From Candidatus Woesearchaeota archaeon (GTDB lineage Archaea; Nanobdellota; Nanobdellia; Woesearchaeales; UBA525), in contig JACWAN010000011.1 in assembly GCA_014874255.1 (NCBI GenBank), positions 1 through 35,327 of the forward strand: 35,327 nt of DNA. Direction: 5' to 3'. The notes under the pieces were generated by a model that worked only from the letters and a program-made list of their open reading frames with translations, was not told the DNA's origin and made no database searches. Positions 208-35,327 of this stretch are shown here, piece by piece (positions within the stretch are counted from its first letter, which is position 1; each line of letters begins with the position of its first letter). The translations under genes were made by a program, and so were the position numbers.

Positions 208-341
208 GGCTCCGAGGCAAATCGCTCCGTGCTGCGCCTCGAGATTTCTGGCCGTCGTCCGGAGGTGCCGACCGAGCCTCGTGGAATCGCGTCTGCTCCC
301 GAAGCAGTCTCTGGGAGGCGCAGCCCATTCGCCTAAGAACC
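208..341. mobile_element. MITE-like element copy 1 (terminal inverted repeats, imperfect 9-bp flanking repeats)
   Basis: Left end GGCTCCGAGGCAAAT (208-222); right end ATTCGCCTAAGAACC (327-341), complement GGTTCTTAGGCGAAT. Inner stem GCTGCGCCTC/GAGGCGCAGC. Flanks CGTCTATCC (199-207) and AGTCTATCT (342-350) share GTCTATC in register. Confidence 0.65.
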
Positions 342-344
342 AGT

Positions 345-500
345 CTATCTCGTCGGTCCCGAGGCGACGCCGACGCAGACGGTCTTCTCCGTGTGGCAGC
401 TCGCGCACCGGTACGTGATGTAGCGCGAATTACCGGAGTTGAGCGTCCCGACCTTCGTCATCTGGGTCTTGCAGAGATTGCATTGCGGATTGTCAGCCAT
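345..500 (-). CDS. Small zinc-ribbon-like protein (51 aa, two CxxC motifs)
   Basis: MADNPQCNLCKTQMTKVG...YRCASCHTEKTVCVGVASGPTR; ATG at 500; TATA (TTTATATA, minus) at 544-551. Confidence 0.7.
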   Translation of the reverse strand: MADNPQCNLCKTQMTKVGTLNSGNSRYITYRCASCHTEKTVCVGVASGPTR

Positions 501-566
501 GAAAAGCACCTCGTCGTCGCTGAGCCGTCCCCGCCGCGCACAGTATATAAATGTTCCGGGAGGGTT

Positions 567-846
567 GGCTCTTAGGCGAATCAGGTTCGTGGTCGTCACC
601 GGCTGCTCGGCAATCGCTTCTCCTCTCGAAAGCGCTCCTCCCCGTAGGTCCTTGGTAGCGCGGACGCTACCGGGACGCTCGGAATCCGGAGGATTCCGGC
701 GCACGAAGACTCCCTCCTTCGGAGTCTTCGTTGCCACGGCGAGCCCCGTGCTCGCCCGGGGGGCATCCCTCCTCGTCGCGCTCCGGCCCCCCTTCCTCGC
801 TTGCCACACCCTCGGAGCCGGTGACGACTCAATTTGCCTAAGAGCG
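567..846. mobile_element. MITE-like element copy 2 with multi-hairpin interior and 9-bp direct flanking repeats
   Basis: GCTCTTAGGC (568-577)/GCCTAAGAGC (836-845); inner perfect 13-bp stem GTCGTCACCGGCT (592-604)/AGCCGGTGACGAC (816-828); flanked by GGGAGGGTT at 558-566 and 847-855; four internal hairpins between 654 and 756. Confidence 0.8.
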
Positions 847-895
847 GGGAGGGTTCGAGGCAATCAATAAAAGAGGATGACCCTTCCCGAAAGAG

Positions 896-1666
896 ATGGA
901 GCTTCTTCCCGGACTGGAGCCGGACGGCGCGGCGCTCTACCTCCCAGCGAGCAAGGCGCTCGTCCTCGCCGACCTCCACATCGGGTACGAGGAGGAGAAG
1001 CGGAACAGGGGCGTCCTGCTCCCAGCCGCGCAGCGCCGGCTCTTCATCGACGAGATCGAACGGCTGCTGGAGAAGCACGACGTCGAGCTGATTGTGCTCG
1101 CGGGTGACGTGAAGCACGAGTTCGGCCGGATCTCGCAGCAGGAGTGGAGCGGCGTCCTCGGCTTCCTGCGACGGCTGCAGGAACGCGCCAGCGTCGAGGT
1201 GATTGCGGGCAACCACGACAACCTCCTCGCTCCCATCCTCGCCAAGGAGTCCATCCCGCTCGTGAAGAGCATCCTCCTCGGCGACGTGCTCGTCGTCCAC
1301 GGCGACGCGACGCTGTCAGAACTGATCGAGAGCGGCGATCTCCGGAAGGAAGACCTTGCCGCCGCGAGGACGATCGCCATGGGGCACGAGCATCCCGCGC
1401 TCAGGTTGACGGACGGTGTCCGGACGGAGACGGTGAAGTGCTTCCTCGTCGGGAAGGCGCGGCACGGCCGTCGGTCGGTCCCGCTCGTCGTGCTGCCGTC
1501 GTTCAACCCGCTCAGTTACGGTACCGATGTGCTCCGGGAGCGGCCGCTCGGGCCGCTCCTCAGAGCATTCGGTGATTTCTCTGCCTTTGCGCTTGTTGAT
1601 GGGAAGGTTTTGGCGTTCGGGTCGGTAGAAACTCTGCAAAGGCGTGAGCGTGCGTTCATTCGATGA
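896..1666 (+). CDS. Metallophosphoesterase (archaeal ICC-like/COG1407 type)
   Basis: Motifs LADLHIGYEEEKRNRG, LAGDVKHEF, IAGNHDN, VVHGD, MGHEHPAL. Confidence 0.85.
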   Translation: MELLPGLEPDGAALYLPASKALVLADLHIGYEEEKRNRGVLLPAAQRRLFIDEIERLLEKHDVELIVLAGDVKHEFGRISQQEWSGVLGFLRRLQERASVEVIAGNHDNLLAPILAKESIPLVKSILLGDVLVVHGDATLSELIESGDLRKEDLAAARTIAMGHEHPALRLTDGVRTETVKCFLVGKARHGRRSVPLVVLPSFNPLSYGTDVLRERPLGPLLRAFGDFSAFALVDGKVLAFGSVETLQRRERAFIR

Positions 1667-1802
1667 TGGGACTGATGACCTCCTCTTCTTTATCGAGGGC
1701 GAGGCAGTCGGCCTCTGGGATGGCGATCTTCCCCTCGGGAACGCGGCTCCTGTTGAAGCAGTAGCCGTCGAAGTGGTAGAGCGATGGACTGCATTTGAGC
1801 AT
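1656..1802 (-). CDS. Small hypothetical protein (48 aa), absent from supplied ORF track
   Basis: Read from the minus strand: MLKCSPSLYHFDGYCFNRSRVPEGKIAIPEADCLALDKEEEVISPIIE*. Codon-like composition; AT-rich TATA-bearing spacer upstream; tail overlaps the 896-1666 gene by 11 bp. Confidence 0.5.
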   Translation of the reverse strand: MLKCSPSLYHFDGYCFNRSRVPEGKIAIPEADCLALDKEEEVISPIIE

Positions 1803-1937
1803 GGGAAACCCCTTTGTCGCAACGTATTCAGGTATACTAAAACGTATATTGGTATATCTAGTATATAAATGTTTTGGTGGCTCGAAGAAGTGTCATCACT
1901 TCGAAAAAGATAAAAAGGAGCTGTTGACGGGGCAGCC

Positions 1938-2969
1938 ATGGCGCATCCGCTGTCGCGTTTCGAGCCTATCGTTCTCCAGCTCAGGCACAGGAAGATGATC
2001 GCAAAGGCATCATTAGACGAATACCTCAATGACCCTGATCCGCGGCACCTCCATTCGTCGAACGTAGCATTCGCCATACCGCCCGAAGCGATGCTCAAGG
2101 GCGGATACCAGGTGCATACGCACCAGAACGGGCACCAGGATCTTATCCGCTACACGGCCCCGGGAGAAGAGTCCAGGCCAATCTTCACGCTCGACGACCT
2201 CAGGCATTATCGGCAATACCTCGAAGTGTTCCACCCAATCCAACCGGAAGGGACGAAAGCGAAGAAACTCGACGTCCAACTCGCCCTGAAAGGGATTCTC
2301 GGCGAATATCTGCTCAGGGACCACGTCCGTCAGCTCCTGCCGGCAGAAGCGGAGCTTTTCGATGAATACCCGCAGAAAGACCTGATCCTCAGGAACAACG
2401 AACGGTACGTCCTCAAACGGAAGACGACAGGGAACGTGGTGCTTCTCGAACCGAAGCAGGAGGGAAAGTTCGGCTATCGCGTCGTCGCGGAGATGGACGG
2501 TCTTGCCAAGTGGGAGGACCACCTCTACGTCCTTGAGGCGAAGACCGGTGTCGCGAACATCCCCCTCAAACACGTCCTCAACGATCTGTTCATGCCCCTC
2601 CAAGAGCTCTATGACGGATGCACGTTCCATTATGTCATGATGGCCCATCATCATCCGATACAGGTCCGGAAACATGATCTCCTCGGCTTCAGACTCACCG
2701 AAGAAGAGCGCCACAGGATTCTCGCGTTCCGTCGGAGAGGTATCGAGACGACCTTCCTCAACTTCAACGAATCGAGGGAACGGATCAGGGAGATGGGCGA
2801 GCATCTCATCAAGGAATACCATCGGCTGAAGCACATCCCGTTCGAGCACAAGGTCCAGGGCGTCCGGAACGGCAACAATCTCACCATCCTGGACGACCAA
2901 GGCACACCGAACCTGAGACTCAGGAAGACCGGAAAAGAGACCTGGAAAGAAGTCGTCAGCGACAAGTAG
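1938..2969 (+). CDS. PD-(D/E)XK nuclease-like protein
   Basis: 343 aa; ILGEYLLRDHV helix, then AEMDGLAKWEDHLYVLEAKTG (D...ExK pattern). TATA-like tatataaat at ~1861. Confidence 0.55.
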   Translation: MAHPLSRFEPIVLQLRHRKMIAKASLDEYLNDPDPRHLHSSNVAFAIPPEAMLKGGYQVHTHQNGHQDLIRYTAPGEESRPIFTLDDLRHYRQYLEVFHPIQPEGTKAKKLDVQLALKGILGEYLLRDHVRQLLPAEAELFDEYPQKDLILRNNERYVLKRKTTGNVVLLEPKQEGKFGYRVVAEMDGLAKWEDHLYVLEAKTGVANIPLKHVLNDLFMPLQELYDGCTFHYVMMAHHHPIQVRKHDLLGFRLTEEERHRILAFRRRGIETTFLNFNESRERIREMGEHLIKEYHRLKHIPFEHKVQGVRNGNNLTILDDQGTPNLRLRKTGKETWKEVVSDK

Positions 2970-3097
2970 GAACCTCGGGGCGCTCGACCTCGACCAGACA
3001 GGGGAAGAGCGCTGCGACGGTTGACGAAAAGAAGTTATCACTCGACGATAGAAATGCTTATATAATCCATCCCACCGAGGCCCACGCAGGGGGCAGT

Positions 3098-5248
3098 GTG
3101 GGAATCGAAGCGATAGCGACAGGACACCCCGATTACTGCGAAGGCGGGGACCAGGACGGGCTTTTCGGCTCGGCACGAGGGCTCGCCACGCACTTCTTGG
3201 ACAAGGCGAAGAGCGGGACGCTCGAAGCGCTCATCGCGGCGCACGGCGCCGACGCGGACGGCTTCGGCTTCGAAACGGTGATGCGCCTCCTCGAGGAGAC
3301 GCTCCGGTTGGCGGGCATCGACACGCAGTTCGACTACGTCCGACCGATGCGCTATCATGAGGAAGAGCACGAGCACGGCTACGCGACGCTGGGCGAGCGG
3401 CACAAAGGCAAGTTCCTCATCAGCGGCGACGTCGGCGGCGCGGACCTCACCACGCTCGGAGAGCAGTTCCGGGAAGGGATCATCATCGACCATCACCCGG
3501 TGAAAGGCGAACCGGGGAAGGGCTTCCGGCAGCTCAACCCGATCGACCATGGTTACGGCGGCAACACCCTCTCAGGGGCGGGCGCAGGTTACCTCTTCTT
3601 CGACGCGGTGAGAGAACAGCTCGAGCAGGACGGCGCGTTCCGGACGAAGGAGGCGCAGAAGGAGGTCGAGCGGCTCGGCAGGACGGCGCTCGTCGCCGCG
3701 CTGGCAGGCTCGAACGCGGACCGGATTGACGAGCAGGGCGTGACGAGGCTCCTCTACGAACAGGCGAAGGAGTGGAAGCTGCTCCGGGAGACGGGTATCG
3801 GCGCGTACGGGTACACGACGAAGCAGATCCACAAGGTGCTCGCGGAGTCGAGCATCCCGGCCAACCTCCAGTACCCGGTGCTGCGGCGCCAGCAGTTCCT
3901 GCACGGCCTCGCGGGAAGCCTCGGGAAGGAATCGTTCACCTCCGACGAGGTGAGCGTCGCGAACAGGCTCTACAAGGAGCACCGGACGCTCTTCATGCAG
4001 CAGTACCGGAGCGTGGACGGCGGGTTGCGGGTGGACGAGAGCGCGATCGAGGTGAACCTGCTGAACGCGCAGGCCCTCAAGCAAGAGGAGATCGACGAAG
4101 TCAACAAAGCATTGCGCAGCCTCGGCGCCCGCACGGACGTGCTGGTCAGGGAGGAAGTGATCGACTGGCTGGGCGTCCTCGAGGTCGTCTCGGTCGACCC
4201 GTCAGCAGGCATCAGGCCGTCGGAGTTCCGCAGCTTCACGGACGATGTCTATGAGACCGAGGAACGGTGCAAGACGGCGAACAGGACCATCACGCAGCAG
4301 CTCCGCAGCCTCGAGAAGGAGGCGCAGGGGCTCGAGAAGCTGCTCAAGACACCGAATCTCGCCGAAGCGCTGCTCGGCGAGAAGCGACTCTGCGACCTCA
4401 CCCCGGACGAGCTCGGCCTCTTGAAACGGTGGTGGCGGGAGAACATCGAGTCCTACGCCGACCCGTTCAAGCGGGAAGGGATGATCGCGGACCTCGACCG
4501 GCCGAACTACCTCACCGAAGGGAAAGGGCTGACGCCGCTCCTCGCCGGCCGGACGCTCGCGGAACTCGGCAACGTGATGACCGCGATCTCCAAGACGGGG
4601 CTGCGCGACCATTTCATCGACGCCCTCATCCTTCCGGGAGAGCGGGGCGAAGACGCCGAACGGAAGGTGCACGACGCGCACAAGCTCTATCGCACCATCA
4701 TCTATGAAGGGCTCCGCGCGGCGGAACACCGCTTGCTCGAGAAAGGGTCGTTCGCGAAGGAGATCGCCGACAGGGTCTACCTGCTGGACTTCTCGTTCCT
4801 CGAGGAGACGATCAACGACGTCGCGGAGCGGCATTACGAACGCGGCTCCCTCCTGACGAAGGAGGAGATCGGCAACCTCGACCTCAAGACGCTCGTCGGC
4901 GTCTTCGCAGGCATCCTGACGAACACGCGGAAGATGCCGGAGCATTACGCGCTCGTCTTCGCCTACGTCCCGGATCTCGAGCAGGTGGAAAGGGGCATCG
5001 ACGGCATCAAGCTCTCCGGACGCGTGAGCGAACGCGCGGACGACATCTTCCCCGGTCTCCATCTGGGCGAGGATTTCCTCGTCTATGACGGCGGCGGGCA
5101 CGCGGGCGCGGCGGCGGTGAGGCTCACGCGCAGCCAGCTCCCCGGCTTCCTCAAGAAGATGTCCGAGCGGGAGGCGCAGGACGAGAAATACAAACAGCTC
5201 GGACGCGTCAAGGACCATCTCGAACTCGGTCCGGGGAGGAGAGCGTGA
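3098..5248 (+). CDS. DHH/DHHA1 phosphoesterase (RecJ/GAN-like) with long helical insertion
   Basis: GTG start; HGADADG, ISGDVGGADL, IIIDHHPV and C-terminal YDGGGHAGAAAVRL (DHHA1 GGGH). TATA-like ttatataa upstream at ~3057. Confidence 0.8.
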   Translation: MGIEAIATGHPDYCEGGDQDGLFGSARGLATHFLDKAKSGTLEALIAAHGADADGFGFETVMRLLEETLRLAGIDTQFDYVRPMRYHEEEHEHGYATLGERHKGKFLISGDVGGADLTTLGEQFREGIIIDHHPVKGEPGKGFRQLNPIDHGYGGNTLSGAGAGYLFFDAVREQLEQDGAFRTKEAQKEVERLGRTALVAALAGSNADRIDEQGVTRLLYEQAKEWKLLRETGIGAYGYTTKQIHKVLAESSIPANLQYPVLRRQQFLHGLAGSLGKESFTSDEVSVANRLYKEHRTLFMQQYRSVDGGLRVDESAIEVNLLNAQALKQEEIDEVNKALRSLGARTDVLVREEVIDWLGVLEVVSVDPSAGIRPSEFRSFTDDVYETEERCKTANRTITQQLRSLEKEAQGLEKLLKTPNLAEALLGEKRLCDLTPDELGLLKRWWRENIESYADPFKREGMIADLDRPNYLTEGKGLTPLLAGRTLAELGNVMTAISKTGLRDHFIDALILPGERGEDAERKVHDAHKLYRTIIYEGLRAAEHRLLEKGSFAKEIADRVYLLDFSFLEETINDVAERHYERGSLLTKEEIGNLDLKTLVGVFAGILTNTRKMPEHYALVFAYVPDLEQVERGIDGIKLSGRVSERADDIFPGLHLGEDFLVYDGGGHAGAAAVRLTRSQLPGFLKKMSEREAQDEKYKQLGRVKDHLELGPGRRA

Positions 5249-7596
5249 CGACGAGTGACGGACGGACGGTCTTCGGCGAGGATGTTCCGCACAGGGATGA
5301 TCTCGACGCGAAAGTGACGAGCATCCTCACCAAGCAGAACCGTTTCCTCAAGGTCGTCGACGCGAACGGGGACCGGACGCGGCCGGCGATCATCGTCGAC
5401 GAGCCGACAAGGGATATCTCGTTGAAGCCGGACCCGGCACTGACCCGGTTCTCCGGAGGGATCGTCGTGCCCGTCGATTACGTGAAGCGGCAATATCTCT
5501 TCCCGGAGAAGATGCCCGCAGGCATCGCGCTTCCCGACATCCTCTATGTGTCGCGGTCTGACGACGGCACCGCGAAGGTCATGCCGCTCGATGTGAAAGG
5601 GAAGAGACTGAGGGATCGGCGGAAAGTGGAGAGGAACTACATCTCCGCCGCCCAGGTGACGGGGTGGAACGCCTACTCGCTCTTCATGCGGAGCGAGACG
5701 GTCAACCGGATGGTCAGGACGGCCGCCTCGGCTCTCGGCTGCGTGCCGGACCGTTTCACGTTCACGGACGGCGCGCTGGTGATGGAACAGGAGGAAGGAC
5801 CGAACCGCGAATTCTCGGAGTTCCTCGCCTCTTCCGGCCTGTTCGGGAAAGGCAGGGTGCTGAACATCGGCCGGGAAAGCGTCAGGATCAGGGAAGAAGG
5901 TCTGGAGAAAGCAGGTGACGGAGCATACCGTCTCGAGGAGGGATTGGAAGGCTCACGGGCATTTTGCCGGCCGATGAAACGCACCACCGGTTTCAAGCTC
6001 TGGCAGAGCCAGACGAGGAACCAGGTCAAGCAAGGGGTCAACTATCCATCGATGGTGAGCGTGATACGGGGCTTCGACGAGGAAGGATTACCGGCCTACT
6101 CGAGGAAGTTCTCGCCGGAAGAGGGGTTGCTCCTGAACTACGACCGCAGGCTCGAGCACCGCCTGACGCAGCTCAAGGAGCTGCGGGAGACGAAGGACCT
6201 CGTCGTCCTGCAGACCGTGACGCGGGAACGTCTCCAGGAGGCGCGGGAGAGGATCCGACATCTCGAGCAGGAGAAGGAAGCGGTCGAGGAACGGATCGGC
6301 GAGCTCTCCAGGGAGGAGACGACGCGCCAGGTCTCACTCGAGAAGCGTCTGAGCGAGGCGCTTGCGACCAATCCGCTCATCAGGGCGCTCGACCGTGCGG
6401 CGTTCGACGTGCCGGAAGCGGTCGTGACAAAGACGAAGCGAGAGCTCGGACTGCTGGAGAGAGGCATCGGGCGGTCTCCTCCGCCCTACAATCGGGAGCT
6501 CCTCAAGCAGAAGGCGCACGAAGCCTTGGCACAGGTAGAGAAAGGCGGTTTCCGTCCGAGAGGGGGGAACGAGCTCACGGGGCCGATGGGCGACTATCTC
6601 CGCACGGCATACGGCACAGACATCACCACGATCAGGGAATCGCTCGCGGAACGACAGAAGAACGGGGGGAAGGACCCGAATCTCGTCAAGCAATTCCTGA
6701 AATACCATGTGAAGGAGCAGAGGAGGAAGCTCCTCGCGAGCAGGGAAGCGGAAGCGCACTACCTCGATATCTGCGGCTCGACACCCGCGGACCGGAGCGC
6801 AGCTCTCAGTTCGAGAGGCGTGCAGCAGGCGAAGGTCTACCTGCGGCTGGCGGAGGAGGGGTTGATAGCGAGCGAGGAGGGTCTCTTCAAGGGAGTGGGC
6901 GAGAAGGCGGAGATGTATGAGGGGCTCGGCCGGAAGGTCATGGACCGGCGGACAGGTTACAGGAGGGGGATGGAGAGCCATGCAAAGGGAGGGAACGGCG
7001 GCACGAGAGGAGCGTTGCCGAACTGGTTCGCGACCTATCTTGAGAACAGGGCGTTCGGCGCCGCAAACATCACGGGATTCCTCAGGGGTAAGAGGAACAT
7101 CGAACGCGTGCTCTGCGCTCTCGAGGAGGACGCTGATGCTGCGCTCAAGGCGTGCGAGTCCTACCGCAGGGAGATGCGACAGACCGTGGACGAGTACGAC
7201 TCGTGGACAGGGACGCTCGACAGGATCAGCGAGAGCATCGGCCAGAAGATGGTCGAGGAACGACGGTACGAGAAGCTGCTGCGTCGGATCGCTGTCGAAC
7301 GCGCAGCCCTCGTCGGCGATCCCGAGCTCTTCGAGGACGCGGAACGGATTGCGGAGCTGAAGAAGCTCAGTGAGAAGCAGATAGAAGTGCTCAACGCGGA
7401 GTATGTGAAGCGTAAGAAGAGGATGGTGAACGAGTTCCGCGTCTTCAAGAAGGCGCACGATGGTATCATGCGCGCCCTGCCGTACGAGGTCGAGAACGGG
7501 AAGGTACGCGAAATCTACTTTGATATCAATCCGGGAAGATCGACCATCTATCGGGTGACCGTGCTGCCAGTCATCCTGCTGGGAGAGCAGAACTAG
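5245..7596 (+). CDS. Large coiled-coil protein with N-terminal RecB/PD-(D/E)XK-like segment
   Basis: GTG start overlapping the upstream stop (GTGA, 5245-5248); LPDILYV...MPLDVKGK...ISAAQVTGWNAY (PD...DxK...QxxxY-like); long charged helical middle. Confidence 0.6.
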   Translation: MTTSDGRTVFGEDVPHRDDLDAKVTSILTKQNRFLKVVDANGDRTRPAIIVDEPTRDISLKPDPALTRFSGGIVVPVDYVKRQYLFPEKMPAGIALPDILYVSRSDDGTAKVMPLDVKGKRLRDRRKVERNYISAAQVTGWNAYSLFMRSETVNRMVRTAASALGCVPDRFTFTDGALVMEQEEGPNREFSEFLASSGLFGKGRVLNIGRESVRIREEGLEKAGDGAYRLEEGLEGSRAFCRPMKRTTGFKLWQSQTRNQVKQGVNYPSMVSVIRGFDEEGLPAYSRKFSPEEGLLLNYDRRLEHRLTQLKELRETKDLVVLQTVTRERLQEARERIRHLEQEKEAVEERIGELSREETTRQVSLEKRLSEALATNPLIRALDRAAFDVPEAVVTKTKRELGLLERGIGRSPPPYNRELLKQKAHEALAQVEKGGFRPRGGNELTGPMGDYLRTAYGTDITTIRESLAERQKNGGKDPNLVKQFLKYHVKEQRRKLLASREAEAHYLDICGSTPADRSAALSSRGVQQAKVYLRLAEEGLIASEEGLFKGVGEKAEMYEGLGRKVMDRRTGYRRGMESHAKGGNGGTRGALPNWFATYLENRAFGAANITGFLRGKRNIERVLCALEEDADAALKACESYRREMRQTVDEYDSWTGTLDRISESIGQKMVEERRYEKLLRRIAVERAALVGDPELFEDAERIAELKKLSEKQIEVLNAEYVKRKKRMVNEFRVFKKAHDGIMRALPYEVENGKVREIYFDINPGRSTIYRVTVLPVILLGEQN

Positions 7597-8159
7597 AGCT
7601 TCTTCTTCTCCGCTTTCGGGGAGATGATGGCGCTGTTCCCCGTCGGGTCCTTGAGGACGAGCTTGAGGGGTTCCTGACCCCAGAGGACTCTCGTGAGCTT
7701 CTTGAGGTGGTTCTTCGCCTTCTGCTCGGTCTCGTCGTCGCCTTCCTCCTGCGCGGCCCGTTTGAGGTGCTCGATCTGGTTCTTGATCCTGTTGAGGATG
7801 CCTTCGACGTTGGTGACGTAGCCGTTCGCCGCCTCCCCGGGCTCGATGGAGCCGATCGTGCCGATCTTGACGAGGGCGTTCGCGGACTTGACGACACGGA
7901 TCCTGAGGTCCTCCTCGGACGTTATCTCGAGGGTGTACTGGCACGGGTCGTGCGCCTCCTCGGCCTCGAGGTCCGCCTTGTGGTAGCCGCACGCGCTGCA
8001 GTCCATGCTGAAGAGGTAGCAGACGCCGAAGTACGGGACTTCCCGCCTCGCTTCGGTGAGCGTCAATTGTTTCTCGTGGCAGACCGGACAGGTCTCTCCT
8101 GAGACGGTCTCGAAGTCGCTCGCGTCGGGCTCGGCTTTCGAGACGGGTGCTTTCGCCAT
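7593..8159 (-). CDS. ZPR1 zinc-finger domain protein
   Basis: CPVCHEKQLTLTEARREVPYFGVCYLFSMDCSACGYHKADLE; convergent stops share CTAG with the upstream plus-strand gene. Confidence 0.9.
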   Translation of the reverse strand: MAKAPVSKAEPDASDFETVSGETCPVCHEKQLTLTEARREVPYFGVCYLFSMDCSACGYHKADLEAEEAHDPCQYTLEITSEEDLRIRVVKSANALVKIGTIGSIEPGEAANGYVTNVEGILNRIKNQIEHLKRAAQEEGDDETEQKAKNHLKKLTRVLWGQEPLKLVLKDPTGNSAIISPKAEKKKL

Positions 8160-8252
8160 GGACCCCGCTCCGGAGAAGTCGGTTTATAAACATTATGCGG
8201 GAGAAAACTATATTCTTACCTGATGCGGAAAAGAAACTCTACGTTGTTGTTC

Positions 8253-8373
8253 AGGAGCGTTGCGGAGACATCATTCTCCCATCCGGTCCGAGAGATGGAC
8301 GGCGGCTCGCGATTATGGTCTCGCTCCGCTCGCCCATGCTCGCCGCCGGACTCTGTTCCAAGGCAACGCTCCT
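8253..8373. repeat. Intergenic structured element, type II
   Basis: Terminal stem AGGAGCGTTGC (8253-8263)/GCAACGCTCCT (8363-8373), perfect 11 bp; inner stem CGGCGGC (8300-8306)/GCCGCCG (8342-8348); GTTCCAAGGC motif inside the right arm. Confidence 0.75.
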
Positions 8374-8473
8374 TAGTCAGCACATAGTAAACGAAGAACG
8401 AATAGTCAGACGGCAGTAAGACGAGGAGACGTGAATAATAAAGAGAATGAGGAAAAGGATTGAAAGAAAGGGT

Positions 8474-9025: not shown

Positions 9026-9268
9026 GGATCGGTGTGCGACAGCACAGCCTCCCTCTTTTCTTGCTCATACTCTCGAACGATGCGCAGAACACCCCGTCGC
9101 TGCAGGATGTATGCTCCCCCAATTCTAAGTATGATTCCTGGGATTTACCCTATATAAACCTTTCGGTCAGAAGTGTGCCGTTTCCGTATACTTGGAGGAG
9201 GAGAATGTGAGTTTTCCACCAAAAAAATAGTTGGACAATTTTCACTGTCCAGGAACGAGCATATACCC

Positions 9269-9577: not shown

Positions 9578-9702
9578 GCAACCACACTCCCTGCATAAGT
9601 TCAGGGACGGCATTTATATAAATCTTTGGGTGGCCGAATAGGAATATTTATAAACCTCCGACGGCGAGGAAGAACCATCACGGTTCGGCAGGTGAGACGA
9701 AC

Positions 9703-10239: not shown

Positions 10240-10246
10240 GAGGTGA

Positions 10247-10483: not shown

Positions 10484-10526
10484 GAGAAGGGAGAAACATC
10501 TTTTCTTCTCGCTCTCAGGAACATAG

Positions 10527-11105: not shown

Positions 11106-11163
11106 ACAGCCGTCAGTCCTGAATGTGCTGGCTCGCGTAGTTGGGATTTTTCTAAGTAGACTT

Positions 11164-11232
11164 CCGTACGAGCCGGTGGCGGGGCCGCGGCCGGGTCATC
11201 CCCTGCGCGACGCGCAGCGCTGGCTCGTACGG
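11164..11232. repeat. Short intergenic structured element between convergent genes
   Basis: CCGTACGAGCC (11164-11174)/GGCTCGTACGG (11222-11232), perfect 11-bp terminal stem; core contains GGGTCATCCCC. Confidence 0.75.
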
Positions 11233-11282
11233 TCACGAATAACTGATAAGGATCGTCAACCGGGGAAAGAAGAAAGCGGGCC

Positions 11283-13037: not shown

Positions 13038-13163
13038 GTGCCGCCACGTCCTGCTCACGTATCGCTGTCGGAACGGAAGGGACTCGTCCCCGTAGGGGGC
13101 AACCCCCGACTCGTCCTCCGATGTTCTTGTCGCTACGTTCACCCGTAAGGACGGAGGCGGCAC
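13038..13163. repeat. Intergenic structured element, type I core
   Basis: GTGCCGCC-A-CGTCCT (13038-13052) pairs with AGGACG-GA-GGCGGCAC (13148-13163); core CCCCGTAGGGGGCAACCCCC (13088-13107); ACTCGT occurs at both edges (13034-13039, 13162-13167). Confidence 0.75.
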
Positions 13164-13170
13164 TCGTTGT

Positions 13171-14894: not shown

Positions 14895-15020
14895 TTTTGT
14901 TTAGCATCTTCGAAATCCTCGCCGTTATCCCGTGGGCGCGGCGTCCCCGGATGGGGCGACCCCCCGCACGCGCGGGCTGCGGCGTTCGCGGGGATTTCGA
15001 CTTGAGGATGCTAAACAAAA
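14895..15020. repeat. Intergenic structured element, type I core, between tRNA-His and hisS
   Basis: TTTTGTTTAGCATC (14895-14908)/GATGCTAAACAAAA (15007-15020), perfect 14 bp; CGAAATCC (14911-14918)/GGATTTCG (14992-14999); core CCCCGGATGGGGCGACCCCCC from 14945. Confidence 0.8.
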
Positions 15021-15867: not shown

Positions 15868-17709
15868 TCAGTAGTTGACCAGGACTTCCACGTCCTTGCC
15901 GAAGACCATCTTGAGGTCCTCGAAGATCGGCTCCTTGATGAACGCCTTGTGCGGAATCTTCAGGTTGGCGAGCGCCTTCTCGAGCTCTTCCAGCGACGAG
16001 CCGGTAATCCGGCCGAGGCCGCCGGTCGGCTTCAATTCGGCGCGCGTGATCTCCTTCTGCTCCGCATCCACGTCGTGGATGATGAACGCCTCCTTCTCGA
16101 GGAGGATGACCTCGCCGTACTTCTCGCCGTGCTTCACCCGGATCCTCGCCTTCTCCAGTTCGCGGCCGCGTTTCCGCTGGATGTGCTCGACCATGAAGCG
16201 GAGCAGCTCCCGGGCTTCCTTCTTGACGCGGTGCGCCTCAGCCATGGACAATTTGCCCTTGTCGTAGTCGCGCTTCGCCTTCTCCACCTCCTTGAGCACC
16301 CGCAAGTACTTCTCCGGGATGATGCCCGCGTGCACCACTTCCGTCTCGAAGAGGCGCACCATCGCCTCGTCAGAGACCTTCTCGATGCCCTCGAGCTTGA
16401 GGATGTCCCGCACCACGGTCACGGTCGATTCCCAGACCTGGACGACGTCCTCCTTCTCCTTGACTTCTTCGATCTGCTCGAAGAGCTTCGCCAGCCGCTT
16501 CAGGTACTTGTCCACGGAGCCGATGAGGTCGTCGAGCTCCACGCCCGTGACGTCCTTCTTGGTGAGGTGCTCCATGTCCTTCCGCACCTTGAGGATCTTC
16601 TCCAGGATCCTGACATACTCCTCCTCGAGGAGCTTCTCCTTCTTGACGAAGACGTCGCGCATCACTTCCGGCGTCTCCTTCGGCGTCGGCGGCGGCAGGC
16701 CGTAGAGCATGATGGCGGCTTGACTGGGGGTGAACGTCGCCCAGAACGTGTCCTCCATCGCGATCTCGTTCAGCTTGAACTTCATGCGCTGGAGCATCTG
16801 GTCGCCCGTGGACTTGTAGATGTCAATCGCTTCCGAGGACGGCTTCACTTTCCCCATCTTGAGGAGCTGCTTCCACGGCATGAAGATGCCGCGGTCGTAG
16901 AACGGGATGCCGTCGCGCAAGAAGGTGAAGATGATCGGGTTCGCTTCCTTGATGTTGTCCCAGAAGTCGGTGAGGATGTAGACCTGGATGTTCAGCTTGT
17001 TCTTGATCCCGGTCATGTTCCCCGCGTCGATGCCCATGCCGATGATGATTGCCCGTAATTTGTCCTTCAATTCGGCGCGCGTCATCTTCTTCACGTCCGT
17101 GTCGTCGATGACGATGAAGACGTCGATGTCGGATTCGGGAGTGGCGCGTCCCTGGACGAGGCTGCCCGCCAGCACGTACGAGACGATGTACTTCTCGAAC
17201 TTCTTCAGGACCATCGTCTTGTGGATCTCCGCTATCTTGACGGCCGCGAGCATGCCGCCGTCGTAGACCGGAGCGCTCATGGCGATCATCTGCAGCAAGT
17301 CATGCTTGCCGTCGTAGCACGCCTGCCACAATTCGCTCAGGAGCAGGACTTCCGGCTTGAGGTTCTTCTCCACCTCCTGCGCCTGCGCGTCGACCAATCC
17401 TTGCAGCTTCTGCTGGAGGTCGGCCTTCGCCATCTTCGTGCTGTCCGAGTCGTCCATCAGCACCAGGACGTTGATGTCCTCCTTGCGATCCTCCTCCTTC
17501 GCCGGCGGGAGGAGCGCGATGCCCATGGTGTAGTCCTCGAACTTGGCGCGCACCTTCTTCTCGAACTTCTCCAGGAGCGACTTGATCGCTTCCAGGCGTT
17601 TCCGCGCCTCGTCCGGGAGCTGCTGCTCGGCCGTGAGCTGCGCCTCGACGCCGGTCAGCTGATCAACGGGAGCGTCCTGAGAACCCTTCTTCGCCTCTTT
17701 CTTCGCCAA
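15868..17709 (-). CDS. Nucleotidyltransferase-domain protein (Pol-beta superfamily) with helical C-terminal region
   Basis: VLAGSLVQGRATPESDIDVFIVID (GSxxxGxxxxxSDIDV); preceding segment MGIALLPPAKEEDRKEDINVLVLMDDSD looks like a degenerate second copy. Confidence 0.8.
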   Translation of the reverse strand: MAKKEAKKGSQDAPVDQLTGVEAQLTAEQQLPDEARKRLEAIKSLLEKFEKKVRAKFEDYTMGIALLPPAKEEDRKEDINVLVLMDDSDSTKMAKADLQQKLQGLVDAQAQEVEKNLKPEVLLLSELWQACYDGKHDLLQMIAMSAPVYDGGMLAAVKIAEIHKTMVLKKFEKYIVSYVLAGSLVQGRATPESDIDVFIVIDDTDVKKMTRAELKDKLRAIIIGMGIDAGNMTGIKNKLNIQVYILTDFWDNIKEANPIIFTFLRDGIPFYDRGIFMPWKQLLKMGKVKPSSEAIDIYKSTGDQMLQRMKFKLNEIAMEDTFWATFTPSQAAIMLYGLPPPTPKETPEVMRDVFVKKEKLLEEEYVRILEKILKVRKDMEHLTKKDVTGVELDDLIGSVDKYLKRLAKLFEQIEEVKEKEDVVQVWESTVTVVRDILKLEGIEKVSDEAMVRLFETEVVHAGIIPEKYLRVLKEVEKAKRDYDKGKLSMAEAHRVKKEARELLRFMVEHIQRKRGRELEKARIRVKHGEKYGEVILLEKEAFIIHDVDAEQKEITRAELKPTGGLGRITGSSLEELEKALANLKIPHKAFIKEPIFEDLKMVFGKDVEVLVNY

Positions 17710-18511: not shown

Positions 18512-18611
18512 CGTAGCACCTCACAGCAATTATCTGGATGTTTGTTTAGTACTGTTTAGTGGTATCATTAGTGGAACTGATTTATATACCTTTCGGTGTT
18601 GTTTATAAATG

Positions 18612-18879
18612 AACCTCCCCGGTCTAAAGGCGGGGGTACAAGGGATTCGAAAAATCCCTGTACGCGCGGACCCGAAGTCCGCTAGCGTATCCCCTCGTAA
18701 AGCTCGAGGAAAGCCGCGGAGATTTACTGCTCGTCCCTCGCAGCGTATTACGATTTCGCACCTGCATGCCCGCGACGGCACGTCGGGGCGCCGAAAGCTG
18801 TGGCTTTCGTGCGAATCGGCGCGAAATCTGCTTTTGCTCCAAGGCGGCATTCCTCCTCGAGCTAAAGCACGAGGTATCC
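18612..18879. repeat. Compound structured element (type II core plus hairpin chain with IS200/IS605-like end hairpin)
   Basis: CCTCGT (18693-18698)/ACGAGG (18869-18874); AGCTCGAGGA (18701-18710)/TCCTCGAGCT (18854-18863); GCCGC/GCGGC; GTATCC at 18687-18692 and 18874-18879; hairpins CCCCGGTCTAAAGGCGGGG, GTACAAGGGATTCGAAAAATCCCTGTAC, GCGGACCCGAAGTCCGC. Confidence 0.75.
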
Positions 18880-18908
18880 ACGGATTTAATGAACTAAAAA
18901 AGGAACCC

Positions 18909-20943: not shown

Positions 20944-20997
20944 ACCGCTTCTAAGAAAACTCTAAAAAAAAAAACGGGAGACGGAGAGCCGCATCTA

Positions 20998-21109
20998 CGT
21001 CATTGCCGCGGCGGAGAGATCGTCCTCCCTCCGGTCCGGGGTCTTGCGAAATCGCGCCTGCATCAATCGGCGCTATTTCTGGTATCGTTCCAAGGCGGCG
21101 GCAATGACG
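20998..21109. repeat. Intergenic structured element, type II, between convergent genes
   Basis: CGTCATTGCCGC (20998-21009)/GCGGCAATGACG (21098-21109), perfect 12 bp; GTTCCAAGGC, CTCCGGTCCGG and CCTGCAT motifs inside. Confidence 0.8.
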
Positions 21110-21165
21110 CTGTGGAAGAAGATGACGGAAGAAAGTGCGTGAGGCATTATCCCCTGTTTACGCCC

Positions 21166-27800: not shown

Positions 27801-28182
27801 CGGTGTACTGCTTCGTGATCTGCGCGGGGGTGCCGTCCTGCTGCGCGACCTGGAGCGAGTACACGCGGGGCGCCTGGTACTCCTGGGGGAAGGTGTACGA
27901 GCACGTGTAGCCGCCGCCCGTCGCGGGCTGGCAGGTCATGTTGAGGGCGCCGCTGTTCCCGAGGAGGCTGACGAGGTCGCTGTCCGCGTAGACGAAGACG
28001 GTCGTGGTGTCGTTCGCGCGGCGGAAGTCCTGGACCTGGTCCTGGCCGTACACGACGGCGGAGAGCGCGGCGTCGGCGCGCATCGAGAGGGCGGAGACGA
28101 AGATGATGCTGACCGTCAGGTAGATCATGAAGAGCGCCGCCATCTGCAGCAGCGTCCGCTCCGTCACGTCCCGTTCCTCCAT
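24805..28182 (-). CDS. Large surface protein with Ig-like repeats and Cys-rich C-terminal half (1125 aa)
   Basis: N-terminal TM, repeated TxTVDxxPP/IENTNPTI beta modules; CIPAQLYNLRKEKQLKCIELKCIREVAPTGVPITQCEQNYAAQSC shared with the 30974-35128 protein. Confidence 0.85.
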   Translation of the reverse strand: MEERDVTERTLLQMAALFMIYLTVSIIFVSALSMRADAALSAVVYGQDQVQDFRRANDTTTVFVYADSDLVSLLGNSGALNMTCQPATGGGYTCSYTFPQEYQAPRVYSLQVAQQDGTPAQITKQYTVDGVPPTFNRITYRQAGEYLIADYSVTDTSYPGDTNGCSGLGTLSLVVDDNTVATKTLNQSGCSDTGSLQADLPGRSGQVKAYLLASDRLGNTGNSTLQTLTVDTVPPSLPSTFQLLHNGVDVQRISTNSQGDIRVTLNLSIQEDALASAVADASALTTDPSLQQAYKALKLDCVQDGGLYDCTADNLKLDPANETVTINLAATDAKGNRATGVATKVLTIENTNPTITYLGRADPRCDGTCYARSGANQLLAEVNAPGGMAGAGLFVSFGGSAAAATNCSSADGTTWDCAITALLPEAPSGSTQTLTILPSSMDDLGNAFTGNLTRSFIVDNDPPKLVGTPTADLSCPTADQTLTVNATATDSVAQTLVISANVSAVTDQDAATADCTPVGNKTFTCSLPISGFVSVHTTATVPIAITDQAGNAVKMQMPLEVCEAENEATPNYITRIGLAGSAPAVDKRIASLIPFRVVLPLTMTITGGARVLQVSRVTCTNDFIVGPSYVVNDFSSAPVLVTSYQYRGAWPKKEVPLNCTLDFTIRRGNTVYSKPEQENVTASLPLVGQEIGNPGAAIKQKENGLVQDINGLQGSIDSKARLDNTIGKLCNLAETIGNINSALQAVKAVLYGIAMVLMGTVFGATAGIALWHHANIGLSNIGATVNKYIWPIGWMPTSSSAFSTQIVGYLVKWTCGLYECKMYDASTWAQIGMEVGQYENVFHMNEVPVTDTVTTSNTYYIPDFSSSNDVASWYGYTPSLSDKSVTITSTYHVQSVVSAVPGSNLYNDMLNQNKAFVDSIPGDNWIVNPYRSTEYDALCIPAQLYNLRKEKQLKCIELKCIREVAPTGVPITQCEQNYAAQSCLYLESAQAKMGSSITDILEKAVAAIALQTAIGFGIQWAFKSQCAALFSMTDPGAVLASTAGGSASTCTLIDQAGVLQWSLPYCGAKAVACGLAQSYFNFEELSSFAHSLRSQNSDVPSGQDYCAGLQGVKPDSTASSGGGLL

Positions 28183-28209
28183 GCGCGCATCCCCTGTGGC
28201 TGTTGTTTT

Positions 28210-28247
28210 TAACTCTTTCTACTGTCTGTAACTCTTTCTGCTGTCTG
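28210..28247. repeat. 19-bp direct tandem duplication
   Basis: TAACTCTTTCTACTGTCTG followed immediately by TAACTCTTTCTGCTGTCTG (18/19 identical). Confidence 0.85.
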
Positions 28248-28263
28248 GCGTCTACTTCACACG

Positions 28264-28516
28264 ACCTTCATCGCCACGACGTCCTTCGATCCGGCCCTTC
28301 ATCGCCACGGCCTAACTATCCTCCCGCACGGAACGCGTTCCGCGTTCCGGCGCCCCGGCAGCCTCTGGCTGCCGCGGGCTCCGGTCCGGGCAGATCGTCG
28401 GGCGCTCACGATTATGCAGTCGCTTCGATCCAGTCACTGCGTTCCTGGCCGACTCGTATAACTCGTCGCTCCTGCATGTTCGCGCCCGTCAATCGTGCCA
28501 AGGCGGCGATGAAGGT
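28264..28516. repeat. Large intergenic structured element, type II, with duplicated left arm
   Basis: ACCTTCATCGCC (28264-28275)/GGCGATGAAGGT (28505-28516), perfect 12 bp; second left-arm copy CCTTCATCGCC at 28296-28306; internal palindrome GGAACGCGTTCC (28330-28341) and hairpin CGGCAGCC-TCT-GGCTGCCG (28356-28374). Confidence 0.8.
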
Positions 28517-28661
28517 GTTTGTCGCGTCGTTGACGGTGTTGTTGACGCCGTTGATGATGCTGATGATGAAAGCGTTGATTGCGTCGTTGATGAAGGCGAC
28601 GTTGAAATGTGTTATAAGCGATAAGTGTTAATTATTAGTGGTTAATTATTAGCGGCTGTTC

Positions 28662-30977: not shown

Positions 30978-33900
30978 CCTGCCAGTCCTCCACCCATGCC
31001 GAAACCCGTCGCTCCGGTACCGAGACCCGTCGTCCCTGTACCGAGACCGGCGCTCTGGTTCGCCTGATACTGGTTCGTCGAGTACGGGTCCTTGACGCCG
31101 AAGTCCGGCAGCCCCTGGCTCGTGACGCCGCCCCGGTCGAAGGCGTTCGGCTCGATCGGCCGGCAGTACTTCGTGTCGCCGCCCGCCTGCGGGAACGGCT
31201 TGGCGAAGAGGACACACACCTCGGTATACGCCTCGGTGTCGTTCACTGAGTATGCTTCGTTGACGACGTCGCCCTTCGCGAGCGCGACATTGCTCGCGAC
31301 GCTCTTCCCGCCCGGGTTGAGGATGACGCCCATCGTGTTGTCGCCGAACGGGCTGACCGCGACCGTGCTGATCGTGTAGAGCCTCTGCGTCGCGGTGCCG
31401 GTCTGGTTGGCGCGCGCGCCGACGTTGAGCCGCTCCGCCGCGAACGTCAGGACCGCACGGTAGTTGTCGCCCTGCCACGCATAGACCGCGCCGTCGTCCA
31501 GCGTGAAGTCGCTGAACGCGCCGGCCGGGTTGCAGAGGTTGTTCTTCCACTCCTCCGGGTTGAGGAGCGTGTTCGCCTGCGCGCTGAGCGACGCGCCCCA
31601 ATCGCCCCACCCGCTGAGGAAAAGGAAATCGAGCTGGCCGTTCTCGCGCATATATTGATAGAGCGTGTTCGAGAGCATATCCACCCAGCCGTACACGTTC
31701 GCCGCCGTCTGCGCCTTGTGGCCGGCGTCGCTCGCAGCCTTCTGCGCCGCGGCGCGCTGCTCCTCGGTCAGAGGGGGGCCGCCACAGTGTTGACAGGTTC
31801 CGTCTTTGTTGAGCATGAGACACACGCATATCTCTCCCGTGACCGTGGGAGCGTATTTCGTGTCCTTGTAGAGGTTCGCCGCGGCGGTGTTGTAGGCAGT
31901 AGTGAGTTTATCGCATTCCACGTTGTTGTACGTCGTTCCCTGCTGGCAGACGGGGTTGCTCGTCGGCGTCTGCTTCAGCGTCGCGAGGCTCTGGGCGATC
32001 GCGTCGTTCGTCAGCTGGCTCGTGGAGAGGAGGCTCGCGCCCGGCACAGTACCCGTCTTCGCGAGGCCGGCGAGCTGGCCGCCCGAGGTGATGGGCTGCC
32101 CGGCGACGAACTGGGAGCGGAGGACGTTCCGGTCGTTCTGGCCAACGCTTGTTCCGGCCCCGGAATAAGGAGTCAGGTCGTTCAGCGATAACCAGAGGCT
32201 CGCCGCGTCGGCCGCTCCCTGCGTCGTACTCGTATCGATGCCGACTTCCTTCATGTAGGACTGGAATGCCGTGTTGCTCTGCCAAGCGTTAGGATTCACA
32301 GGTCCGACGAAATGCGAAAGATCCGGGAGGCTCTTCAGCATCGCGTCCGCGACCTGGACACGCGCCTGCTTGTCGTGCTGCGCGAACCATTGCTGCCGGT
32401 ACTGGTCGCCCGTGTAGCCGAAAGCGGGGGAGAGCTGCTCGAGGAAGCCGCTCGTCGTGCGGCCGCACGCGCTGCCCACGCAGAGCGCCTTCTGGCAGAG
32501 GTCCGCCTGGTAGGGGAAGGAGAAGAGCATGTTGTACTTCGTGACGCTGCTGAAGTCCTTCTGCATGGCGAGCGTCTTCATGAGGTGGCATCCGAACCCC
32601 TTCCAGTTGAGCGTCTGGTCCGTGCCGGCGCACGAGGCCGAGTTGAGCTGGTTGACGAGCAGCGTCAGGGGGGACTGCACGATCTGGTTGATGTTGGCCG
32701 CGAGGTTCTTGATGACGCGGATGTAGGGCAGCTCGAAGATCTCGCCGGTGACGAAGCGGCACATCTTGACCCCCCGTGCTTGCTCGCACGGCGTGATCGA
32801 CGCGCCGTCCAGCGCCTGCTCCTTGAGGCATTCGAGATAGCCGCAGTCGATCTCCCGGTACTTGTTCAGGTTGTAGACGACGCCGCTCCAGCACTGCGTG
32901 GCGACGGACATGATGAGGCTGTTGCCCACGTCCGGCGTGTTGAGGTTGCTGAAGTAGTCGCCGGCCATCTTCTGGGCGGCAGGGGGCAGCTCGCTGCCGA
33001 TGTTCAGGTCGTTGGCGAAGCCCTGGTCGCCGGCGAGGAGCCAGTTGCCGCCGCCGCTCTTCTGCGCCGCCTCGGCCGCCGCCTGGGTCTTGTTCGCGAC
33101 GTCGCAGTAGATGTAGTCGCAGAACTTCTTCGTCGTCAGGGTGGCCTTCTGGAAGTCGTCCTTCACGGCGGAGGTGGCGCCGTTGAGCGGGTTCGCGGGC
33201 GAGGCCTGCGGCATCTTCCCCATCCAGTACGTGGCGCTCGACATGAACATCATGTTCCAGAGCTGGTTGCCGCTGCTCGCGAGGCCCTGGCCGACGCCGG
33301 TCTGCATGAGGAGCAGCCCCATCGCCTGCATCTGGAGGCCGGGCGTCTGGAGCATGTTCATGATGTTCTGGAGCTGGCACATCTGCGCGAAGGTGGCGGT
33401 GAGCTGGTTCGCCGTGCCGACGAGCTTGTTCAGCCCCGTGTTGAGGCTGTTCTGCTCGTCGTCGATCTTCTTGAGGAACGCCTTGCCGGGCGTGCCGAGC
33501 TTGCTGTCGTGCAGCCGCAGGGGGAAGTAGAGCGTCAGCTGCTCGGGCGAGGGGTAGATCGTGTTGTCCTGCTGGACGACGAGGGAGAGGTTGCATCGGA
33601 CGAGGATGAGGTCGCTCTTCAGCGTCGAGGTGTCCAGCTTGAGGAATGAGGCGTCGAGCCGGTTGTCCTCATTCCAGTCCGCGTCCGGGTAGAAGACCCT
33701 GATCGGGTCGAGGAAGAGCGCGGGCGTGGCGCTCCAGTTCTGGCCGTCGTTCGGGCCGAACGGGTCGCTGTTCGCCTTCGGCTTCTTGACGACCTGGCAC
33801 GTCGTGGCCGCCACCGATTGCTGGAGGATCTTCGCTCCCGGCGCGAGCCGGGTGAGATGGTAGTTGATGAAGAGCGGGTAGTCGAACGCGTTGTCCAGCG

Positions 33901-35128
33901 CCAATTGGAGGGCTGCGCGGTCGACGGTGCCAGGCGTGACGGCGGTCGCTTTCGCGGCGAAGAGGGCGGGCGTCGTCGTCGCGTTCGAGACGTTGAGGAT
34001 CGCGGGGACGGTGACGTTCGCCGTGAGCGTCCGGCCGAGCTCGTCGGTGAAGACGAGGCCGAGGGGCAGGTTGCGGCCCGCGGCGAGGGAGCCGACGCTG
34101 AGCGTGCATTCCTGGAGATCGTTCACGGTCTTCGTGCACTGCACGCTCTGGAGCCGCTCCGTCGCGTTGGCCGAGGCGTTCGTGGCGTTGACGGAGGCGT
34201 CCGCGGCGTCGCCCGCAGCCTTGAGGACGAGCTGCGTGACGTCCGCAGTCATCGTGACGTGCAGCACGGGCTTCTCGATCGTGGCGGTGACGGTGAGCGT
34301 GCCGTCGTTGGTGACGAGGCCGAGCGGTCCCGTGCCGGCGAGCGTGACGTTGAGCAGCCGCAACGGGGTGGCGTCGCAGATCACGGTGACAGGCGTCTCG
34401 TTCGTGGCGGGGTTGCCCGCGTCGTCCTGCGTAGGGACGCCGTTCGCCGAGGTCACCGTCAGGTCGTAGCGTTCGCCGTCCGCGCAGGTGAGGAGCGCGG
34501 TGCCCGTGCAGCTGTCCCCCGTGCAGTTGTCGACGGAGAAGACGTGGGTGCCGATCCGGTAGAAGACGAGGCGCTTGTCGAACGCGCCGTCGGGGTCGTC
34601 AAGGGAGACGGTGACGTTCGTCTGGATGCCGCTGCCGATGTAGCAGCGTTGGCCGTCGCAGAGCTGCGTCGCGATGCCCGTGACCACGGGCGAGGTGTTG
34701 TCGATGGTGAACTGCGCGGTGAGGTTGCCGGGGTAGTTGGTGCCCGCATTGAAGAGGCGGTACGGGATGGTGACGCTCCCGTTCGCGGGCATGATGAGGA
34801 GCTGGTCGGTGCACGTCGTCGTGTTCGCGGTCGCGTTGCGTTCGCAGCCGGTGAACGGGTACTGGCGATTGCTGTATGAGGCGCTCGTCCCCGGGTCGGT
34901 GGTGAGCTGGCTGAGGTCGAGGAAGGCGTAGCCCTGGTTCAGGTCGGTGGTGAAGCTCATGTCGACGAGCTGCGGGTGGCCGGGGCTGATCGCCGCTATC
35001 GGCTGGCCGTTGCTCGTGAACGTGAGGTCGGTGATCGTGTAGGCGAGCGCGGAAGATCCGAGGAGGGCGAGGAGGGCGAGCGAGCAGGCGGAGAGGATGA
35101 AGCCGATGCGTAGCTGCCTGCCGTCCAC
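30974..35128 (-). CDS. Giant secreted/surface protein (1384 aa) with Ig-like N-terminal part
   Basis: GTG start (VDGRQLRIGFILSACSLALLALLGSSALAYT signal-like sequence); CWSGVVYNLNKYREIDCGYLECLKEQALDGASITPCEQARGVKMC matches the 24805-28182 protein; TATA (TTTATAAA) at 35178-35185. Confidence 0.8.
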   Translation of the reverse strand: MDGRQLRIGFILSACSLALLALLGSSALAYTITDLTFTSNGQPIAAISPGHPQLVDMSFTTDLNQGYAFLDLSQLTTDPGTSASYSNRQYPFTGCERNATANTTTCTDQLLIMPANGSVTIPYRLFNAGTNYPGNLTAQFTIDNTSPVVTGIATQLCDGQRCYIGSGIQTNVTVSLDDPDGAFDKRLVFYRIGTHVFSVDNCTGDSCTGTALLTCADGERYDLTVTSANGVPTQDDAGNPATNETPVTVICDATPLRLLNVTLAGTGPLGLVTNDGTLTVTATIEKPVLHVTMTADVTQLVLKAAGDAADASVNATNASANATERLQSVQCTKTVNDLQECTLSVGSLAAGRNLPLGLVFTDELGRTLTANVTVPAILNVSNATTTPALFAAKATAVTPGTVDRAALQLALDNAFDYPLFINYHLTRLAPGAKILQQSVAATTCQVVKKPKANSDPFGPNDGQNWSATPALFLDPIRVFYPDADWNEDNRLDASFLKLDTSTLKSDLILVRCNLSLVVQQDNTIYPSPEQLTLYFPLRLHDSKLGTPGKAFLKKIDDEQNSLNTGLNKLVGTANQLTATFAQMCQLQNIMNMLQTPGLQMQAMGLLLMQTGVGQGLASSGNQLWNMMFMSSATYWMGKMPQASPANPLNGATSAVKDDFQKATLTTKKFCDYIYCDVANKTQAAAEAAQKSGGGNWLLAGDQGFANDLNIGSELPPAAQKMAGDYFSNLNTPDVGNSLIMSVATQCWSGVVYNLNKYREIDCGYLECLKEQALDGASITPCEQARGVKMCRFVTGEIFELPYIRVIKNLAANINQIVQSPLTLLVNQLNSASCAGTDQTLNWKGFGCHLMKTLAMQKDFSSVTKYNMLFSFPYQADLCQKALCVGSACGRTTSGFLEQLSPAFGYTGDQYRQQWFAQHDKQARVQVADAMLKSLPDLSHFVGPVNPNAWQSNTAFQSYMKEVGIDTSTTQGAADAASLWLSLNDLTPYSGAGTSVGQNDRNVLRSQFVAGQPITSGGQLAGLAKTGTVPGASLLSTSQLTNDAIAQSLATLKQTPTSNPVCQQGTTYNNVECDKLTTAYNTAAANLYKDTKYAPTVTGEICVCLMLNKDGTCQHCGGPPLTEEQRAAAQKAASDAGHKAQTAANVYGWVDMLSNTLYQYMRENGQLDFLFLSGWGDWGASLSAQANTLLNPEEWKNNLCNPAGAFSDFTLDDGAVYAWQGDNYRAVLTFAAERLNVGARANQTGTATQRLYTISTVAVSPFGDNTMGVILNPGGKSVASNVALAKGDVVNEAYSVNDTEAYTEVCVLFAKPFPQAGGDTKYCRPIEPNAFDRGGVTSQGLPDFGVKDPYSTNQYQANQSAGLGTGTTGLGTGATGFGMGGGLAG

Positions 35129-35200
35129 CGTCCTACCACCTGCGCCCGCGGCGCGTGACGTCCCCCCGTCGACAGGCTTTATAAAGTTTATTGCCTTCTC

Positions 35201-35327
35201 GGCTCTTAGGCAAATTCGCCTTCGGCGGTGTTGCCGGCTGCGACCCGTGTCGCTGCGTTCTTCGCTGCATCGTTGAAGCCCCGTAGGGGGCATCCCCCTC
35301 AACTCTCCGTTTCTTCTTATCGCTACA
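35201..35327. mobile_element. MITE-like element copy 3, truncated by window end; type I core
   Basis: GGCTCTTAGGCAAATT (35201-35216), same terminal repeat as 208-341 and 567-846; core CCCCGTAGGGGGCATCCCCC (35279-35298). Confidence 0.65.

Follow-up and report, generated by a model that had tools for sequence, protein, structure and literature searches.

We posit that the spacers of a 35,327-nt archaeal window, the entire contig C89 of a 122-contig, 1.29 Mb Woesearchaeota (DPANN) MAG, hold members of a mobile DNA family, short non-coding repeats that form hairpins and exchange their cores within resident palindromes (probability about 0.57). The resident palindrome would be a locus-specific closing stem (P1), or that of an IS200/IS605-type or terminal-inverted-repeat miniature element, carrying at its tip a branched core of roughly 110 nt. 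The likely recognition determinants are the bases conserved at unpaired and junction positions (GGAG..CTCC, CTCCGGTCCGRG, TGCATNAATC and TCCAAGGC), while the stems would need only to pair. If the family is mobile, sister genomes would allow a direct reading of the shape of the substrate and of how hairpin-dependent mobile DNA is exchanged, a rare opportunity, and this in archaea (DPANN) whose mobile elements have received little study.

A branched core among the window's hairpins

The first-pass annotation of the window had described nine elements, most of them closed by perfect stems, as a single family. The closing stems are exactly where it had placed them (Table 1) and lie well above dinucleotide-shuffle chance, the 3.6 kb of spacers containing 11 perfect inverted repeats of at least 10 bp versus 0.67 in shuffles (maximum 3, n=200); five window elements fold as single-stranded DNA with z-scores of -2.4 to -6.2. 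The single family, by contrast, dissolves: only the elements at 8253, 18693, 20998 and 28264 have the CTCCGGTCCG..CCAAGGC core, that at 28264 being assigned by its motifs and not among the covariance-model matches.

Table 1. Hairpin elements of the window, with perfect closing stems where present, and ends of core-holding cassettes in other genomes.
Location	Strand	Element	Perfect closing stem (positions)	Further features
1..118	-	Right part of palindrome-associated element		CCCCCGACTTCAGTCGGGGG hairpin; 96-100% identical at many contig ends
206..337	+	Hairpin-rich repeat, interrupted stem		End ..CGCCTAAGAACC; relatives at C54, C59, C11
567..853	+	Terminal-inverted-repeat miniature element (GGCTCTTAGGC .. 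GCCTAAGAGC)		Nested inner stem GTCGTCACCGGCT
8253..8373	+	Core-family element, type B inner hairpin (GCTCGCGATTATGG..CCATGCTCGC)	AGGAGCGTTGC (8253/8373)	P1 AGGAGCGTTGC/GCAACGCTCCT, GGAG..CTCC hairpin, TCCAAGGC
11164..11232	+	Simple palindrome CCGTACGAGCC..GGCTCGTACGG	CCGTACGAGCC (11164/11232)	
13038..13165	+	Hairpin, other module class		CCCCGTAGGGGGCAACCCCCGACTC core
14895..15020	+	Long palindrome TTTTGTTTAGCATCTTCGAAATCC..	TTTTGTTTAGCATC (14895/15020)	Adjoins tRNA-His
about 18606-18890	+	IS200/IS605-type palindrome-associated element	AGCTCGAGGA (18701/18863, of the nested 18693 element)	End hairpin ATGAACCTCCCCGG..GGCGGGGGTA .. CACGAGGTATCC
20998..21109	+	Core-family element, type A, P4 stem with TGCATNAATC loop	CGTCATTGCCGC (20998/21109)	P1 CGTCATTGCCGC
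28264..28516	+	Core-family element, type B, long inner insertions	ACCTTCATCGCC (28264/28516)	P1 ACCTTCATCGCC/GGCGATGAAGGT
35201..35327	+	Left part of another GGCTCTTAGGC element, ended by contig edge		CCCCGTAGGGGGCATCCCCC module
L122, L132, L140		Cassette end GGTAAAGTCAAGT		
SI073_bin58		Cassette end GGCTAATATGAA		
G039, G028		Cassette end of GGCTCTGT type		
UBA10207		Cassette end, IS605-like CCCCGGGCTAAAGCCCGGGGTATC		

In these four elements the core occupies about 110 nt, and alignment of copies gives a fixed order of P1, a GGAG-N-CTCC hairpin (P2), the junction CTCCGGTCCGRG, P4 with its TGCATNAATC loop (type A), TCCAAGGC and P1'. Some copies have a second inner hairpin in place of that loop, either type B (GGCGCTCACGATTATGG..CCATGTTCGCG) or another, type D, at L255/L150. 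Copies of type A measure 108-111 nt, and TCCGG and CCAAGG lie exactly 60 nt apart in 13 of 13 despite differing P1 and P4 sequences. Among the family's copies, insertions concentrate in the loops of P2 and P4. About a quarter of type-A copies have GTCG/CTCC at the P4 base in place of GAAA/TTTC, a recurring symmetrical double mismatch.

Further copies, covariation and structured orthologous spacers, the three signs on which the annotation had staked its proposal, are all present. In the home genome (G000), a blastn search with positions 20998-21112 finds 43 places and a covariance model (R1) about 110 matches at E<0.01, the 8253 element scoring 4.6e-13; the 16-mer CTCCNTCCGGTCCGRG has 70 exact genome copies versus 0 for its reversed control, and relatives hold copies too. 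The reported density of one element per 3.5 kb comes down to about one per 11 kb for the core family genome-wide. Judging from the covariance-model matches, neighbouring copies within about 1 kb are apparently in no excess over a rough density estimate, and regular gene-plus-hairpin arrays were rejected on this ground.

Covariation without a preference for G·U

The claim that stem sequences change while pairing is kept is borne out strongly. In 13 aligned copies, 94.2% of cells are paired versus 70% in shuffles, compensatory changes occur at 21 of 28 pairs, and none of 500 shuffles reaches the observed values; P1 alone is 92% paired. Pairing drops to about 45% when partners are slid by one base, a control made favourable by deriving the structure from the same copies. 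Although a single genome supplied most of the 13, as paralogues, the magnitude of the effect is beyond doubt. The most conserved part of the copies is their unpaired and junction bases.

Such textbook covariation, combined with conserved unpaired bases, is what a structured RNA family, free-standing or cis-regulatory, would give, and this had been the annotation's main suggestion. A functional RNA is expected to tolerate G·U far better than A·C. Across 102 distinct home-genome copies, however, the two mismatches are equally common in P1 (29 G·U versus 31 A·C) and in P4 (14 versus 15), or 43 versus 46 together. P4 stems picked only by their loop and junction anchors gave 19 versus 20, and P1 stems picked by an anchor chosen for Watson-Crick pairing, which favours neither mismatch, 28 versus 31. 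The tRNAs in the same loci have 45 G-U and 0 A-C, a control biased by the ARAGORN stem definition and running in the expected direction. Nearly all copies are intergenic and near stop codons, with random gene orientation among 98 home-genome copies (28 antisense, 25 sense, 17 convergent, 14 divergent). Their flanks are pyrimidine-rich on the 5' side and purine-rich on the 3' side, and neither strand shows a TATA-like peak at any fixed distance. The window has no gathering-score match in Rfam except tRNA, and two loci have no credible match at E<=5.

Because G·U is no commoner than A·C, gene orientation is unbiased and no promoter is seen, the evidence points to a structure kept at the level of DNA and probably not of RNA. 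Of the annotation's two options, RNA or hairpin DNA, the first is disfavoured. An RNA function is improbable in our view, even granting that orthologous single changes lean slightly toward G-U (14 versus 8 A-C, not significant) and that in one AT-rich genome, RIFCSPHIGHO2_02_FULL_36_9 (e.g. L128, L143, L136, L109), the 3'-side gene is opposite in 17 of 22 copies, unlike in the home genome. As a general model, a riboswitch, 3'-UTR or terminator element was rejected on the random orientation in G000, one other genome being biased; a free-standing RNA gene was rejected for want of a fixed promoter, and a known RNA by Rfam. Nothing relevant was found in the literature on structured RNA of Woesearchaeota or on palindromic repeats of DPANN. 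Covariation is usually counted as proof of functional RNA. The roughly one hundred copies described here covary strongly and yet look like DNA structure, which should caution RNA searches based on covariance; the G·U/A·C ratio provides a simple test.

Parity of the two mismatches could also arise with no function at all, if template-switch (quasi-palindrome) correction at replication keeps the palindromes perfect, a process that would yield compensated changes without strand bias. We regard this as very improbable, given that the unpaired and junction bases are conserved most, the opposite of a neutral loop, and that several orthologous stems retain uncorrected mismatches, which implies that correction is not fast.

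Exchange of cores at orthologous loci

Comparison with G004, a sister species whose syntenic genes are 84-93% identical, shows cores being replaced over retained stems. The 8253 element is present in both genomes. At 20998, G004 retains P1 and P2 around an entirely different inner hairpin; at 14895 the stem is shared and in G004 is tipped by an additional hairpin domain; at 11164 the outer stem is conserved; and at 13038 the whole module differs, the orthologous spacer holding a type-B core. The 18606-18890 insertion is absent from the orthologous G004 spacer, which forms an empty site, and G004 for its part carries a different insertion near 20961. Over 22 aligned G000/G004 spacers, core class differs at 9 loci, as read from the alignments by eye, with P1 usually retained. 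A complete second P1 is nested within the old one in G004 (L261 versus L028), and the L051/L175 pair shows the element in opposite orientation. Across home-genome copies, identity in P1 does not correlate with identity in P4 (r=0.01), near-identical P4 copies occurring with unrelated P1, and therefore cores move or convert independently of P1.

All stand-alone positions in these spacers are occupied in both genomes, an occupancy that is partly a selection effect, 13 of the 22 having been chosen because G004 was occupied. A clean empty site was seen for none of the stand-alone copies, the nearest case being one shorter spacer in the more distant G002. In 13 orthologous P1 stems, with arms taken from the alignments by hand, double changes fall at 10 pairs versus 3.5 expected (permutation p=0.0005), 7 of them from Watson-Crick to Watson-Crick.

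Orthologous persistence and this excess of double changes could mean host selection, which would speak against mobile hairpins, as would the lack of a clean stand-alone empty site and of any intact mobilising enzyme among our findings. The copies might then be host-beneficial DNA hairpins or cruciforms at gene boundaries, serving as a supercoiling sink or as a nucleoid or replication binding site, as in proposals for REP/BIME; their intergenic setting near stop codons, the continued occupation of orthologous positions and the compensated double changes in P1 all accord with such a role. Cores nevertheless vary freely at the same locus, copies lie inside recently moved elements, and the family is absent or nearly so from several relatives, G005 and G008 among them, and from most of the order's other families, so that we consider a benefit to the host rather unlikely.

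Patchy distribution and carriage in mobile elements

In a stricter scan, 10 of the 59 genomes of the order have matches, with 61 in the home genome, 46 in G004 and 36-38 in each of G007, G009 and G039. Other congeners have few or none (2-13 copies in some), G005 and G008 lack the family or nearly so, and most other families of the order have none. Signature matches in named records belong to Candidatus Woesearchaeota; the signature is absent from IMG/VR, and a viral origin was rejected on that basis.

In several other genomes the core lies inside cassettes, whose ends are of at least four kinds (Table 1). Small transposon-like cassettes with terminal inverted repeats also hold core hairpins at L057 and L066 (G028; GGCTCTGTCCC..) and at L083, L096, L123 and L135 (SI073_bin58; GGCTAATATGAA..). 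Palindrome-associated elements of the home genome occur with a core hairpin (L291, L294) and without one (L306, L309, L318), and a hairpin insert in such an element has TATCC on both sides. In the window, the core-family hairpin at 18705-18858, whose P4 loop itself carries an insertion, is nested in the 18606-18890 element.

Because Y1 transposase relics adjoin the same end hairpin as the palindrome-associated elements (L321, G000:C103:7200-7961; L322, G004:C77:7300-8150), the carriers are linked to IS200/IS605, while nothing ties the Y1 enzyme to the cores. The G000 relic retains the HIH motif and is truncated, lacking the N-terminal part of the domain, and that of G004 has one stop; a search of the incomplete MAGs G001, G007, G009 and G039 found no Y1 transposase.

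Short mobile DNA hairpins agree with the finding of cores within several unrelated mobile ends, with the patchiness, and with the exchange of cores and the insertions at tips. The conserved function proposed by the annotation does not follow, because core swapping between loci, carriage in mobile elements and patchiness among relatives fit selfish DNA at least equally. We suggest that cores are inserted into, or swapped between, palindromes at hairpin tips, and that tip insertion would nest new hairpins in older ones. Such a process probably works on DNA that is single-stranded or extruded, a state that would account for covariation without G-U preference. From these patterns we infer that the substrate is single-stranded or cruciform, that a structure-specific enzyme acts on it in trans, and that the elements are selfish instead of serving the host.

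Relation to known systems

The closest precedent, likened here by description, appears to be SMR-A of Haloquadratum walsbyi, a non-coding element of about 110 bp with inverted ends and tens of copies, which strongly prefers to insert within palindromes of palindrome-associated transposable elements (PATEs) and IS605-type elements and makes no target duplication (PMC3119063). The core family is likewise about 110 bp (108-111 nt in type A), too short for a transposase, and has prominent inverted ends in its P1, whether this is part of the element or of its target. Some of its copies lie within palindromes of PATEs or IS605-type elements, in UBA10207 and at window 18693, and the hairpin insert in the home-genome PATE has TATCC on either side. 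SMR-A copies within a type commonly exceed 95% identity (>95%) and target other mobile elements (PMC3119063); core-family stems, in contrast, have diverged while compensating, the majority of copies sit alone in ordinary spacers, inner modules are exchanged, and the host phylum is different.

PATEs themselves, with IS200/IS605-type ends, are matched by the near-terminal hairpins of window 18606-18890 and of many UBA10207 copies. The window element has their features, being non-coding with IS605-type near-terminal palindromes, and mobile by its empty G004 site and the Y1-relic hairpin. The core lies outside the minimal element, however, and occurs mostly without PATE ends, as do most G000 copies. 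REP/BIME/REPIN sequences with their TnpA-REP (RAYT) enzyme are similarly high-copy intergenic DNA hairpins near gene ends, but measure 20-40 bp, unlike our three-way junction with covarying stems, and no RAYT gene follows the core copies. A RAYT/REP system was rejected, since the distribution of Y1 transposase, found only as relics in G000 and G004, does not track copy number.

Integron attC sites are single-stranded DNA in folded form, in which the unpaired bases are conserved and the stems and tip free to vary. The core family shares the conserved unpaired bases and variable stems, whereas no cassette arrays were seen by eye and no GTTRRRY/RYYYAAC boxes were noticed. Tentatively, and as a possibility we hold to be doubtful, there may exist a recombination system that recognises DNA structure in the manner of attC folding, though not bound to cassettes, and that swaps hairpin cores between resident palindromes genome-wide by reading three-way-junction DNA instead of sequence.

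In organelle genomes, for example those of Volvox, intergenic palindromes are nested in one another and form larger folded repeats (PMC2670323). These double-hairpin elements and nested palindromic repeats resemble the core family in the insertion of palindrome into palindrome, and differ in being organellar and shorter, with a conserved 5'-TAAA/TTTA loop and no shared core. What differs from the Haloquadratum and Volvox precedents is the scale, the covarying three-way junction and the exchange of cores over a retained stem.

Other repeats of the window and its sister genome

The palindromes at 11164 and 14895 are separate and lie outside the core family. The 13038 module, CCCCGTAGG (GGGCAWCCCCC), recurs in part at 567 and 35201 and has about 25-30 partial relatives genome-wide. 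Near-identical copies exist of the 567 element, one of 92% identity at G000:C28:4436-4712. Window positions 1-118, 113-198 and 567-648 are 96-100% identical repeats located mostly at contig ends genome-wide; these are recently active elements that break the assembly, and the window starts inside one. More multi-copy intergenic repeats are common to G000 and G004, at L247:9996-10126 and at L248:871-981, 1827-1990, 2746-2910, 6541-6651, 8036-8158 and 17061-17188, and some of them are probably cores or modules of the same kind as the core family.
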